64,000 nucleotides of DNA from Pinibacter soli (GTDB lineage Bacteria; Bacteroidota; Bacteroidia; Chitinophagales; Chitinophagaceae): contig NZ_JASBRG010000001.1 in assembly GCF_029961145.1 (NCBI RefSeq), forward strand, positions 186,001 to 250,000, written 5' to 3'. Each line of letters begins with the position of its first letter. Within the stretch, counting starts at the first letter, position 1. The notes under the pieces are model-generated. The model ran no database searches. It worked only from the letters and a program-made list of their open reading frames with translations, and was not told the origin of the DNA. Shown piece after piece: positions 1,743 to 5,194 of this stretch. Position numbers and translations under genes: made by a program.

Positions 1743-1750
1743 GGAAGCTT

Positions 1751-1891
1751 TAAATTTATAAATAAAAGTTCACTATCATTGATGTCACCAGATTTGTAAT
1801 GTCGCACTGAGAACAAAAGCTGAGTGCCAAGCAAAAGTTGGTGTTGCGTTCCATCGCGCCGGTTTTTTGCCAAACTGCTTTGTTGTGTGCC
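1751..1891 (-). other. attC-like site of the TPR cassette, truncated
   Basis: Read on the minus strand it opens with GGCACACAAC followed by AAAGCAGTTTGGC, almost identical to the start of the site at 3562-3700. It stays alignable with that site for 141 bp, down to TAAATTTATAAAT at 1751-1763. The matching right arm and closing GTT core, about 66 bp in the intact site, are missing. The homology stops 8 bp from the stop codon of the gene at 1095. The hairpin therefore cannot form and this end should be dead for recombination. Confidence 0.65.
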
Positions 1892-1893
1892 TT

Positions 1894-2622
1894 TTATTTA
1901 GTCTTGCATTGTTCTGTCAACGCTTTTGTATAGTCTTCTGTTATCGGTTGCCCGCCAACTGATTTACAGTCGTTATAGTATTTCCACGCATTTGTACAGT
2001 CCTTTTTTTGGTAGTAGCAAATTGAAAGTTTAAAACTTGTATTTGGGTCGGTCTTGTCCAATTGAAAAGATTTTGTCAAGTAGATTATTGCAGAATCTAA
2101 ATATGTCAAAGCCATTTTCTCATCTAAAGGTTGCTGTCCATAATATTGTGACATAAAATAAGCTCCAAAGTCTGTCAACAAATGTGTGTTTTTGGAATTA
2201 ATAGCAAGCCCTTCCAAATATTGTTTTTGAGCGTTTTCAAAATCGCCGAATACCATATAAACACCACCATAACCCCAATAAATGTCAGTATTTGTTGAGT
2301 CCAAAAGATAGGCTTGATTGAAACGATACATTGCTGTTTTAACGTCACTATACAAATACTTAAATCCTAATTCAATCAAATGGTCCGAAGCTTTACGATT
2401 TGTTGGATATTGTCTAAGTGTCGTTTCAATAAATTCTTTATCGGCAGCTTTTTGTCCTTCAGTTTTAGCAACATGTCCATACTTTGGCAAAAGACGTATG
2501 TTAGTTTTGGCTTCTTCATTCCACTGCTCGAAAGTCATTTTATTGCCCATTAAATCACTGTACTTCTGCCCAAAAGTTGTCAATGAAAATAATGTGATTA
2601 TGACTGTTAGAATTTTTTTCAT
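1894..2622 (-). CDS. Secreted TPR-repeat protein (cassette gene 1)
   Basis: I place the start at ATG 2622, giving 242 residues. A GTG at 2649 extends the frame but lies inside the GTTGTGTGCC cassette end, so it is unlikely. MKKILTVIITLFSLTTFGQ is a signal peptide. The mature protein has tandem tetratricopeptide-like helices, such as YRFNQAYLLDSTNTDIYWGY and a unit ending QYLEGLAINSKNTHLLTDFG, spaced about 34 residues apart. TPR proteins bind other proteins; no catalytic motif is present. The gene sits alone in its cassette with about 20 bp of leader and no obvious promoter. Cassette genes in integrons normally rely on an upstream promoter. It looks AT-richer than the housekeeping genes to the right. 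Confidence 0.8.
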   Translation of the reverse strand: MKKILTVIITLFSLTTFGQKYSDLMGNKMTFEQWNEEAKTNIRLLPKYGHVAKTEGQKAADKEFIETTLRQYPTNRKASDHLIELGFKYLYSDVKTAMYRFNQAYLLDSTNTDIYWGYGGVYMVFGDFENAQKQYLEGLAINSKNTHLLTDFGAYFMSQYYGQQPLDEKMALTYLDSAIIYLTKSFQLDKTDPNTSFKLSICYYQKKDCTNAWKYYNDCKSVGGQPITEDYTKALTEQCKTK

Positions 2623-2642
2623 TTTATGATTTCTGTTTAAAT

Positions 2643-2839
2643 GGCACACAACGAACAGGGCTTTATACAGTTGGGAAAAGTATTCCGTCTGCCGACAACC
2701 ACTGCTGATAAAATATGAAGTTGAATTTAAGAACTAAAGTTGAAATTTATTCCTCCAGCTCGAACTACAGATGGGATTTGCAATTAGCTAATGTTACAAT
2801 GTTCTGCCCAACTTGCATAAAACCCCATGTTGGCGGTAG
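2643..2839 (-). other. attC-like recombination site between cassettes 1 and 2
   Basis: The two ends fold together. On the plus strand AGGGCTTTATACAGTTGGG near 2657-2675 pairs with CCCAACTTGCATAAAACCCC at 2807-2826, leaving a single-base bulge. The outer boxes are GGCACACAAC (2643-2652) and GTTGGCGGTAG (2829-2839). These do not match each other because they come from different cassettes, as expected at an integrated attC. The site ends directly at the TAG stop of gene 2. At 197 bp it is longer than the usual attC range of about 57-141 bp. Confidence 0.68.
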
Positions 2840-3478
2840 CTAATCGTTAGCCTCAACTGATTTGATTGTTTTTAAATACTCAATCGGTTTGGGATTTCCT
2901 TTGCTGTCCCAGCATTTTTCTTCAACGATGCTTCCATTTATCGAATGCCGTTCTGAAAGCTCCTGCCCATTTGTGTAAAAAAGTGTCTCAATTTTATGAA
3001 ATTTAAAGTTAGCCCTGTCTTTATAATTTCCTTCATAATATTGGTATGTCTTACTTAATGGCTTACCATTTTTGAAATACATAAAATTCAACTCATTGAC
3101 CTTTCCTTCTTGTGTAGATGTTTCCTGTTTCATTAGTTGGCCTGCATCATTGTAATAATTCCAAATACCATCACGGTAATCTTTAGGACTGGCTTTAGTT
3201 ACCTTTCCTTCCATTTGCAATTTGCCATTTGCATAAAAATATTTTCGATAACCGGTTAAAGTGTCAATTTCTGATTTTGTACCATCACTATTATTTTCAA
3301 CAATATGAGCAATAAAATGAAGGCTTTCTGGAGCTACTTTAGGGTTTGTGTCAACCGATTTGATTGCATCTTCGCTTGATTGTGAATTGCAACTGCAATA
3401 AATTACAATAGTCAATATAATTGAAAATGCCTTGCAAAAACTATTTAAAGCAAATGTCTGCTTGTCTGTTTGTATCAT
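2840..3478 (-). CDS. MORN-repeat lipoprotein, YwqK-like (cassette gene 2)
   Basis: 212 residues. The N-terminus has a hydrophobic segment followed by IVIYCSC, a plausible lipobox, so the protein is probably membrane-anchored by lipid. The rest contains MORN-variant repeats: GYRKYFYANGKLQMEG, DGIWNYYNDAGQLMKQ, LNFMYFKNGKPLSKTY and ETLFYTNGQELSE. Such repeats occur in YwqK-type proteins, some annotated as antitoxins. That label is a family habit, not shown here. The start codon lies 27 bp after GTTAGCGGTAA, the front end of its cassette. There is no room for a normal promoter. The stop codon abuts the attC-like site at 2839. Domain assignment good, function unknown. Confidence 0.8.
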   Translation of the reverse strand: MIQTDKQTFALNSFCKAFSIILTIVIYCSCNSQSSEDAIKSVDTNPKVAPESLHFIAHIVENNSDGTKSEIDTLTGYRKYFYANGKLQMEGKVTKASPKDYRDGIWNYYNDAGQLMKQETSTQEGKVNELNFMYFKNGKPLSKTYQYYEGNYKDRANFKFHKIETLFYTNGQELSERHSINGSIVEEKCWDSKGNPKPIEYLKTIKSVEAND

Positions 3479-3495
3479 ATTGAAGTTGAATATAG

Positions 3496-3700
3496 TTACC
3501 GCTAACGTCCAGGGCTTGGTGAAGAACTGATATTAGCATTCCCGTCAGCCCGAACCGCTGCTAAATTTATAATTAAAAGTTCATTGTTATTGATGTCGCC
3601 AAAGTATAGAGTCCAGCTGATTACTACTGCTGAGTAGCCGACAAAAGTTGAAGTTGCGAATTGTCAGCCAGTTTTTTGCCAAACCGCTTTGTTGTGTGCC
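3496..3700 (-). other. attC-like recombination site between cassettes 2 and 3
   Basis: The best-preserved site of the three. Plus-strand AGGGCTTGGTGAAGAACTG (3511-3529) pairs imperfectly with CAGTTTTTTGCCAAACCGCT (3670-3689), with a few unpaired bases like the extrahelical bases of integron sites. The outer boxes are TTACCGCTAAC (3496-3506) and GTTGTGTGCC (3691-3700). The inner part is similar to the truncated site at 1751-1891 but not to the one at 2643-2839, so the sites fall into at least two sequence groups. Length 205 bp. Confidence 0.7.
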
Positions 3701-3719
3701 GTACTTGTTAGTGTGTATG

Positions 3720-4631
3720 TCATAACAAGTTGCTTTTACCTAAGTTGCAATTTGTGCACAACGTTTCTAAGTTATCAAGTACAGTTTCTCCGTTTTTACT
3801 CCATGGGATAATGTGGTCAACGTTCAATTCAATTGTCTGATCTTTTGCTGGCGAAGAACCACACTTTTTACAAGTGAAATTGTCACGTTTAAGAACTGTC
3901 CATCTTAACCGCAGATTGATACTTCGAGGTGTCCTTTTTACTTTTACTTTATTCAGTTTTGCACCATCATTGGGAACGTCTTGTCCTGTAATTTCTATTA
4001 AATTTTGTTCTTCTGAATTTTCTGTGTCAGAGTTCACAAATTCAATAAACTGTTCCAAAGCTGCACGCCACGTTCCAAATTTTCTTTCATAAGAACTTAC
4101 ATGATATTTTGAAAATGGTGAAACTACTTCTGCATATTTAGGTTGTCTTCCGTAATGTGTCCACAACTCTAATATGTTTTGTAAATACTGTTCAGTCGTG
4201 GTGTTGTAAATACGTCCTATTTCAAGGTTTGCCGCTTGCTTCGCCTTATTCCAGCCACCAAATCTTTTATGAATTGTTGCGCCACCATACTTTCCAAACT
4301 TTTCGTAGTCTGCCAGTGTGATTTTTGAATTATTTAATTCTTCTGCCACTCTTTTTATGTCAGCCAATAGCAATTCGCTATTTATAGAAGTTTCTCCGTA
4401 CTTAATTCCGTGAATGCTATTTTCAGTTTTAAGTTCGGCTTTTGCTAATGCGGCTTCCCAATTTCCAAATCTCTTTTTTGCTGTTTGATAAGAATACAAT
4501 GCTCCATTGTTTTTTACATAATCTCGAATTTTGAGAGAAGTCTTACCCAAATTATTTGCAACCTGACGCAAGTCATTTATAATTTCTAAGTCCGTAATTT
4601 GTTTGTGTAAATCTGTTAACTCAAATTTCAT
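3720..4631 (-). CDS. HNH endonuclease with homing-endonuclease-associated repeats (cassette gene 3)
   Basis: 303 residues, no signal peptide. The first ~200 residues hold three or four repeats of the form L...VANxLGKxxL...Y...GxxSYxTxxKRFGxWxxAL (for example YQTAKKRFGNWEAALAKAEL and IHKRFGGWNKAKQAA). This matches the DNA-binding repeats found in front of HNH nucleases. The C-terminal ~60 residues are an HNH domain: CKKCG, then VDHIIPWS, then CTNCNLGKS, supplying the zinc cysteines and the catalytic histidine. It is predicted to cut DNA; the target is unknown. It is the first cassette of the block, starting about 50 bp after GTTATGTGCAA. It could itself be a selfish or defence gene carried by the array. 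Confidence 0.87.
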   Translation of the reverse strand: MKFELTDLHKQITDLEIINDLRQVANNLGKTSLKIRDYVKNNGALYSYQTAKKRFGNWEAALAKAELKTENSIHGIKYGETSINSELLLADIKRVAEELNNSKITLADYEKFGKYGGATIHKRFGGWNKAKQAANLEIGRIYNTTTEQYLQNILELWTHYGRQPKYAEVVSPFSKYHVSSYERKFGTWRAALEQFIEFVNSDTENSEEQNLIEITGQDVPNDGAKLNKVKVKRTPRSINLRLRWTVLKRDNFTCKKCGSSPAKDQTIELNVDHIIPWSKNGETVLDNLETLCTNCNLGKSNLL

Positions 4632-4703
4632 TTTTGACTGTCATTATGGTTGTCTCGTAGGGTCGTCTGTATTGCACATAACTCATAAATATACGCATGT
4701 TTC

Positions 4704-4843
4704 TCATCCCTTAATACTTGCGGAAATATTTTTTAAACATGGACGTCCAACAAGATATTTGCGGGCAATTTGCAGTTTTGTTGGTTCGGAGTTGGAATAG
4801 GAATAAACAACAATGTTGATATCCAAAACACTTTATCGCTCAT
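4704..4843 (-). pseudogene. Relic of a PIN-domain toxin: frameshifted and truncated
   Basis: An ATG at 4843 overlaps the end of the antitoxin gene in the compact form ATGAGCGATAA and begins MSDKVF. Continuing in that frame gives nonsense. Shifting by one base after the TTTT run near 4824 gives DINIVVYSYSNSEPTKLQIA and then RKYLVGRPCL, the typical start of a PIN nuclease (first aspartate in LDxN). One lost T in a T-run explains the shift. After about 45 residues the resemblance ends and a stop follows at 4704, close to the cassette boundary at 4682. Most of the domain, including the later acidic residues, is gone. Confidence 0.7.
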
Positions 4844-5042
4844 TTGCTTCGTCGCGGTTAAATTTAAATCCTCTCGTGTCTAATGATATTGCATTAAATG
4901 TAAGCTCCTTTTGTATGTCGTCGCTACGTTGCTTTCCCTCCTCTTTTGCAAACGCTATGATTTCTATTTCTTTCCCAACATAGTCCTGGGGGATTTGAAA
5001 AGAAATCACTTGCTGGTTTGGCCTTATTGTAGTTCGTATCAT
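4833..5042 (-). CDS. Antitoxin-like protein, partner of the broken PIN toxin
   Basis: 69 residues, MIRTTIRPNQQVISFQIPQD onwards. The IPQDYVGKEIEIIAF core is the pattern seen in small Bacteroidota proteins encoded just upstream of PIN toxins. It would form the N-terminal dimer and DNA-binding part of a VapB-like antitoxin, and the C-terminal half would hold the toxin. Its stop codon overlaps the start of the toxin relic by 11 bp, as is usual for translationally coupled toxin-antitoxin pairs. The gene looks intact although its toxin is not. Naming it an antitoxin rests mainly on this neighbour. Confidence 0.7.
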   Translation of the reverse strand: MIRTTIRPNQQVISFQIPQDYVGKEIEIIAFAKEEGKQRSDDIQKELTFNAISLDTRGFKFNRDEANER

Positions 5043-5091
5043 AATCGAAAAATCAGGTCAGGTAAGTAAATTGCGACTACTTGTTTAAACG

Positions 5092-5121
5092 AAAAAAGCT
5101 CCGAATTTCTTCGAAGCTTTT
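5092..5121 (-). terminator. Terminator behind tRNA-Glu
   Basis: On the minus strand AAAAGCTTCGAA and TTCGGAGCTTTT form a 12-bp stem with one mismatch and a short loop, followed by more T residues. It starts 2 bp after the tRNA 3' end. Confidence 0.7.
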
Positions 5122-5122
5122 G

Positions 5123-5194
5123 TACCGCGTACGGGAATCGAACCCGTCATTCATCCGTGAAAGGGATGCGTCTTAACCGATTGACCAACGCGGC
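5123..5194 (-). tRNA. tRNA-Glu (anticodon TTC)
   Basis: The minus strand folds as a standard cloverleaf. The acceptor stem GCCGCGT pairs with ACGCGGT (one G-U pair). The anticodon stem CATCC/GGATG encloses the loop CTTTCAC with anticodon TTC, and the T arm is ACGGG TTCGATT CCCGT. The discriminator base is A and CCA is not encoded. Its 3' end faces the antitoxin and cassette block, a position commonly used by genomic islands. I see no repeat of the tRNA 3' end on the far side of that block. Confidence 0.93.

Follow-up and report, generated by a model that had tools for sequence, protein, structure and literature searches.

The 64,000-nt stretch of the Pinibacter soli genome analysed here (contig NZ_JASBRG010000001.1, positions 186,001 to 250,000; hereafter the window) carries near its start, on the minus strand, an array of three single-gene cassettes with two complete attC-like sites of about 200 nt and one truncated site. 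Such arrays are genuine and show the behaviour expected of integron arrays, and this one very probably belongs to an integron-like system of Bacteroidota with an integrase lineage of its own and, in this genome, several arrays headed by attI for each integrase. The observations behind this reading are a family of attC-like sites with covarying arms, the complementarity between the two ends of a cassette, one broad group of recombinases in two placements relative to the arrays, and an attI predicted by complementarity. In the following, G000 is the source genome, C7, C10 and C12 are its contigs, other G-numbers are other genomes, and L-numbers are loci.

Along the minus strand, the array runs from an attI-like site through the HNH gene, a site, the MORN-type lipoprotein gene, a second site and the TPR gene to the truncated site (Table 1). 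Three same-strand genes separated by site-like stretches had been described in the original prediction, made from the sequence alone, and both the open reading frames (ORFs) and the covariance model (CM) matches at 3496-3702, 2642-2840 and 1704-1893 agree with it. Its spacing by sites of about 200 bp applies to the two complete ones, whereas the last is truncated, with a CM match of 40.8 bits over 1704-1893 and a similarity to the congener G001 that stops at 1737. The attI-like head at 4680-4701 had been overlooked. The integrase was rightly described as not visible near the array: the ORFs listed for the first 12 kb of the window include none, and the sole match in G000 to the array-linked type of recombinase at E<=1e-60 lies on contig C7. 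Furthermore, the two ends of each cassette, as read from the window sequence, are complementary at 10/10 positions in cassette 3 (GTTGTGTGCC/GGCACACAAC), at 9/10 in cassette 2 (GTTAGCGGTA/TACCGCCAAC) and at 8/9 in cassette 1 (GTTATGTGC/GCACACAAC), and the predicted complementarity extends to related loci far above chance.

If a cassette passes through a circle, its start (R') has to fit the end (R'') of the same cassette. In an initial set, at least 5 of 6 variable positions match in 23/32 cassettes, compared with 6/42 for the two sides of one site, and 0/100,000 shuffles reach the observed mean match. The model-based set rests on R1, a CM of the attC-like site built from 34 full sites, the two complete window sites among them; 150 of its 191 matches (E<=1e-6, 99 loci searched) were aligned. 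Here 74/87 cassettes match at 5/6 or more (63 at 6/6) against 17/133 within sites, and outside the training loci the figures are 54/60 (49 perfect) against 12/91 (2 perfect). The observed mean is 5.58 of 6, the highest among 20,000 shuffles being 3.55. In G000 alone, 7/7 cassettes match at five or more positions, a sample so small that the best shuffle does as well as the observed mean. For non-training loci, the matching rate is 70% at positions 10 and 12 and 2% at the intervening position 11. A mismatch persists at position 11, where R' agrees with the complement of R'' at a rate of 0.06 over the full set of 87 cassettes, R' being A in 136/138 and the facing R'' place C in 94/143.

The core of the array sites appears to span about 10 nt, GTTR-N3-G-N2. 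The core consensus of integron attC sites is GTTRRRY / RYYYAAC, and the GTTRRRY box claimed in the original prediction does not hold: with GTT and AAC presupposed in locating the boxes, GTTRRRY fits 5/138 R' cores and RYYYAAC fits 7/143 R'' cores.

Bacteroidota do carry a cassette system of the predicted kind, with 27 sites in G000 (R1, E<=0.01) and the 191 matches across 99 loci. A BLASTN search with one site finds four places in G000 and matches in 7/39 genomes, G000 included. These searches place many copies beside unrelated genes, those in G000 among them, and the sites are neither single nor tied to the same genes in the same order. The HNH cassette gene occurs at E<=1e-40 in 3/147 genomes of the family, G000 included, and the window array is absent from the same place in G001 because only 773 bp span the equivalents of 1737 and 5086 there, next to a GAPDH gene with 95% identity. 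By eye, these 773 bp resemble a toxin-antitoxin pair, no search having been made. In G002, the tRNA-GAPDH side alone aligns to the first 8 kb of the window.

Among the 150 aligned matches, 93 are 190-215 nt long and 42 are 130-150 nt long; Rfam gives no match for the sites at the gathering score, nor up to E 0.5. The inner helix, derived from the same 34-site alignment on which covariation was scored, has 88.4% of its cells paired, and both sides change at 13/16 inner pairs. The covariation score of the whole structure is 0.436, while slid controls reach at most 0.094 and 0/500 shuffles are as high. Among the outer variable positions, two are unpaired between the R'' and R' of the same site in 23/34 rows. 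The predicted hairpins between the genes are thus backed by comparison, not by energy, as the window sites fold no better than shuffles (see below). RNA-parameter folding energies had been considered as hairpin support and were not upheld by controls with DNA parameters.

The candidate integrase, a tyrosine recombinase of 380 aa in a 385-codon frame on C7, was found among the weaker TIGR02249 matches and is followed by seven same-strand sites (E<1e-3); G006 and G009 have the same layout. Among 80 named recombinase loci, the best 80 of 553 relatives in one scan of GTDB genomes, 43 hold sites at E<=1e-6, with 121 matches in total. Of these, 105 (two of them partial, in L148) lie downstream on the recombinase strand in 33 loci and 16 lie upstream and divergent in 10 loci, with none elsewhere. 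L108, from the culturable relative Ilyomonas limi, has eight downstream sites. The site-bearing loci are titled or placed as Chitinophagaceae, Spirosomataceae, Cytophagaceae, Cyclobacteriaceae, Saprospiraceae, Sphingobacteriaceae, Flavobacteriaceae and Weeksellaceae. A search with the array-linked recombinases (A5) gives matches at E<=1e-90 in 70/296 genomes of the GTDB phylum; 20 loci picked from these matches include 10 with a site at E<=1e-6, nine of which have one downstream on the recombinase strand. Canonical IntI scores over the TIGR02249 cut-off in 85/296 phylum genomes. Mutual exclusion of IntI and the array-linked enzyme across the phylum finds no support: in several genomes, an A5 match at E<=1e-90 occurs together with an IntI that exceeds the cut-off. 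Among the 87 genomes listed with IntI matches, all but G073, from the same order, share only the phylum with the genome of the window. L168, in a metagenome-assembled genome titled Phycisphaerales (Planctomycetota), holds a recombinase and a divergent array, perhaps through a binning error or transfer.

The attI-like 22-mer of the window occurs in G000 as four exact copies and two with two mismatches; the reversed control gives none. The C7 copy lies directly behind the recombinase gene, at a locus with its own array, and sites follow each of the six copies in the same direction. In an ungapped comparison, the leader upstream of attI is conserved in five of the six, and the C7b copy shares the core only. 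At the loci read, a core preceded by a related block stands between the recombinase stop and the first cassette ORF. Furthermore, the complement of the first cassette's end by itself finds attI in 19/23 testable downstream-type loci (2.4 with shuffled cores) and in 4/6 testable divergent loci (1.7 with shuffled cores). CGTATATT precedes the core in 9/19 downstream-type and 3/4 divergent loci, the rest having variants or CATAAAT-like stretches. A looser attI pattern is found at 57 places in 35/147 family genomes, 13 of which have two or more, with a control of 0. Of 18 such places retrieved from other genomes, 10 show no site at E<=0.001; the 8 others have 13 matches in all, each of them downstream in the attI direction. 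These 18 stretches contain no strong recombinase of the array-linked type; L238 has a weak match of 33.5 bits. Across 15 genomes that were checked, a single strong recombinase accompanies six attI copies or pattern matches in G000, five in G351 and three in G370; on this ground, action in trans is proposed.

That the window array is instead a relic, its attI copy no longer used and the dispersed attI copies being leftovers of former recombinase loci, is a real possibility, though one we lean away from. The last site is truncated, no recombinase adjoins the array, the C12 copy and, less clearly, the C10 copy keep by eye the last codons of a recombinase gene beside the leader, and a strong recombinase is missing from 5 of the 15 checked genomes that carry sites or attI matches. 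However, the window 22-mer is identical to the copy beside the intact recombinase, and the window cassette ends still match at 8-10 positions.

An IntI-like integrase elsewhere in the genome had been anticipated, and the C7 enzyme is such a candidate, but without the IntI additional domain. Between the catalytic K and HxxR, the array-linked recombinases lack this domain and are about 40 residues shorter; the alignment to 2a3v has a gap at residues 182-245. In 45 array-linked enzymes (2 not parsed), the catalytic K stands 63-67 aa from HxLRH; this spacing is 105-106 in 9 IntI (7 not parsed) and 72 in 11 Xer. The catalytic R, K, H, R, H and Y columns are invariant in alignments of 12 and 38 rows. 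About 100 extra N-terminal residues carry a conserved W-S...W pattern (L047 11100-11480, A5 rows), with sub-cut-off Pfam matches only (DUF5710, E 0.0022 and 0.16); our own idea is that this N-terminal domain may substitute for the missing additional domain. In a quick tree with long-branch warnings, which leaves open the order of IntI, the array-linked group and other recombinases, all 47 site-labelled rows (37 downstream, 10 divergent) fall in one 85-row group (support 94), with the divergent-array rows together in a single part. A Chryseobacterium plasmid enzyme that is also array-linked lies outside this group, in a 7-row group (support 90), so that the array-linked enzymes may not form one clade. 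The Xer group (11 rows, support 100) contains no array-linked row.

It is very improbable that the array is a canonical IntI-family integron that the original prediction failed to see. The best Foldseek match in the PDB to the AlphaFold model (mean pLDDT 85.4, pTM 0.64) is an integron integrase on its site (2a3v, E 3.9e-15), the overall layout is alike, and the C-terminal SP[LF][DS] motif occurs in 76/91 rows of the array-linked group and 8/16 IntI, against 0/11 Xer. The TIGR02249 scores of 162 and 170.6 bits, however, stay below the family cut-off of 265, which 0 of 39 relatives exceed; the K to HxLRH spacing and the rarity of GTTRRRY also stand against it, the IntI group of the tree (16 rows, support 99) includes no array-linked row, and R1 finds no site in the 1.5-kb flanks of 30 canonical IntI loci. 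The arrays are not to be filed as canonical integrons because the tests for the IntI integrase domain and the core motif both came out negative.

Dispersed palindromic repeats between genes (MITE-, REP- or RUP-like) with coincidental recombinase neighbours would account for the repetition of the roughly 200-nt elements, 77-85% alike in G000 over aligned parts, but this explanation is hardly credible and is set aside because of the cassette-end complementarity, the outermost 10 nt or so varying per copy and matching the cassette's other end rather than the element's other side; placement by one recombinase group is regular, attI is located through complementarity, and 77/80 units hold a co-oriented ORF.

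Several results weigh against an integron-like system with its own integrase. Sites are missing at E<=1e-6 from 37/80 recombinase loci, 23 with less than 2 kb of downstream sequence and 14 with more; at E<=0.01 a few partial or antisense matches are misplaced (L168 16789, L119 4217, L121 9028), as are the sole site of L260 and one of two in L254 among the 20 later loci. G022 carries an array and no strong recombinase, and 6/60 non-training cassettes stay below 5/6 matching positions. Two of five covariation measures are not clearly above shuffles (51/500 and 277/500 as high). Compared with dinucleotide shuffles, the two complete window sites show no gain in stability as single-stranded DNA, whichever strand is folded (z +0.95 to +1.48); 163 to 188 of 200 shuffles are at least as stable. 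In the case of the recombinase, the model has pLDDT <50 around the catalytic tyrosine Y359 (352-362), XerA 4a8e comes next in Foldseek (E 1.0e-14), and the TM-scores to 2a3v_B are only 0.50/0.58. By sequence, the best PDB match is 4a8e and the best NCBIfam match NF040815 (XerA-type), so that a likeness to IntI over Xer is not clear-cut.

Under the integron-like reading, the C7 tyrosine recombinase would recognise sites of about 140 or 205 nt with pairing arms that fold in vivo, and would catalyse a cut at G^TT of the core, which at the window attI-like site would fall between 4682 and 4681. The enzyme would excise single-gene cassettes and insert them at the attI beside its own gene; dispersed attI copies, 4680-4701 among them, may also serve as targets in trans. 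Transcription of the cassettes may start from a promoter in or near attI. We cautiously incline towards a wider proposal, a second kind of integron across Bacteroidota. Its non-IntI recombinase, with a weakly DUF5710-like N-terminal domain and no additional domain, would recognise folded sites with a longer core, and one copy would serve many attI-headed arrays in trans as a scattered cassette platform.

Like the chromosomal integrons with IntI (Vibrio type; 2a3v), the arrays have co-oriented single-ORF cassettes with complementary ends, putatively paired inner arms with outer core boxes, an attI next to the integrase gene, and the overall recombinase fold. In contrast to these, the recombinase has an N-terminal extension and lacks the additional domain, the core is GTTR-N3-G-N2, the recombinase lies on the array strand in 33/43 site-bearing loci, and six attI copies accompany one strong recombinase in G000. 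A CALIN, an attC cluster without an integron integrase, resembles the window array in having sites and no adjoining integrase; the window array differs in its attI-like head and in a candidate integrase of another lineage on C7. The IntegronFinder 2.0 survey names one complete Bacteroidetes integron (Salinibacter ruber M1), beside Chlorobi and Ignavibacteriae (PMC9024848), and Bacteroidota appear among the phyla with integrons in two further papers (PMC8618304, PMC9668308). The integrons reported from Bacteroidetes/Chlorobi are alike in broad phylum and cassette arrays, but here none of the 39 relatives passes TIGR02249. In a classification of tyrosine recombinases, the insertion specific to integrons is regarded as essential to how they function (PMC8138268). 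A literature search outside which preprints and most subscription journals lay gave no description of this system. The arrays may have been overlooked because the linked recombinase lacks the part that identifies integron integrases. If the system works as proposed, a large environmental group has a gene-capture platform passed over by IntI-based searches, such sites can be recognised by means other than the additional domain, several landing sites on the chromosome may be supplied by one integrase, and the scarcity of integrons in Bacteroidetes becomes directly testable.

Table 1. Features of the array and tRNA-attI pairs (window positions unless a locus is named)
Feature	Position	Strand	Basis or remark
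attI-like head site AACATGCGTATATTTATGAGTT	4680..4701	minus	exact copy in genome directly behind C7 recombinase
Leader upstream of attI	4702..4761	minus	10-nt bin comparison and alignment of six genomic copies
Cassette 1, HNH / HNH_repeat gene 3720-4631	3506..4681	minus	ORF; PF18780, PF01844
attC-like site ending cassette 1	3496..3702	minus	CM R1 151.7 bits (R1 training row); nhmmer
Cassette-1 site box R''	3691-3700		
Cassette-1 site box R'	3497-3506		part of following cassette
Cassette 2, lipoprotein-like MORN-repeat gene 2840-3478	2652..3505	minus	ORF; PF07661 29.5 bits, cut-off 29.6
attC-like site ending cassette 2	2642..2840	minus	CM R1 131.0 bits (R1 training row)
Cassette-2 site box R''	2829-2838		
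Cassette-2 site box R'	2643-2652		part of following cassette
Cassette 3, TPR protein gene 1894-2649	1743..2651	minus	ORF; every TPR model below cut-off
Truncated attC-like site at array end	1743..1893	minus	profile positions 1-137 only
tRNA-Glu	5122..5194	minus	ARAGORN; 420 bp upstream of attI
tRNA-attI pair, window	4680-5194		
tRNA-attI pair, L093	13951-14357		
tRNA-attI pair, L095	4110-4449		
tRNA-attI pair, L096	13181-13483		

Four of the six attI copies in G000 lie 206-420 bp downstream of a same-strand tRNA gene (Glu, Leu, Arg, Asp). This position prompted the idea of a genomic island inserted at the tRNA, but the fetched stretches contain no exact 14-mer repeat of the tRNA end. Among 28 loci from other genomes scanned for tRNA, L165 is the only one with such a gene, located upstream of its recombinase.

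In terms of content, the longest ORF runs along the array strand in 77/80 cassettes, with a median leader of 34 nt. Ten ORFs beside sites in G000 include four with Pfam matches (fatty acid desaturase, dioxygenase, peptidase S9-like and DUF4261) and six with none. With PADLOC, the HNH cassette gives weak nuclease-domain matches, and eight further cassette proteins give none.

Xer-type recombinases (NF040815) and plasmid-borne relatives are alike in the catalytic domain, with 31-42% identity in the 30 plasmid places listed. No site is found in the three of these loci that were searched, L214-L216 (Sinorhizobium, Parabacteroides, Methylomonas). Several plasmid relatives of the recombinase occur in Rhizobiales, and the Methylomonas relative adjoins an IS91 family transposase (L216 3085-5163). 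L213, a circular Chryseobacterium plasmid of 66 kb (NZ_CP041688), carries a related recombinase together with an array, with eight site matches downstream on the recombinase strand (E 1.6e-11 to 0.019), and its cassettes include an IS110 transposase and a group II intron gene.

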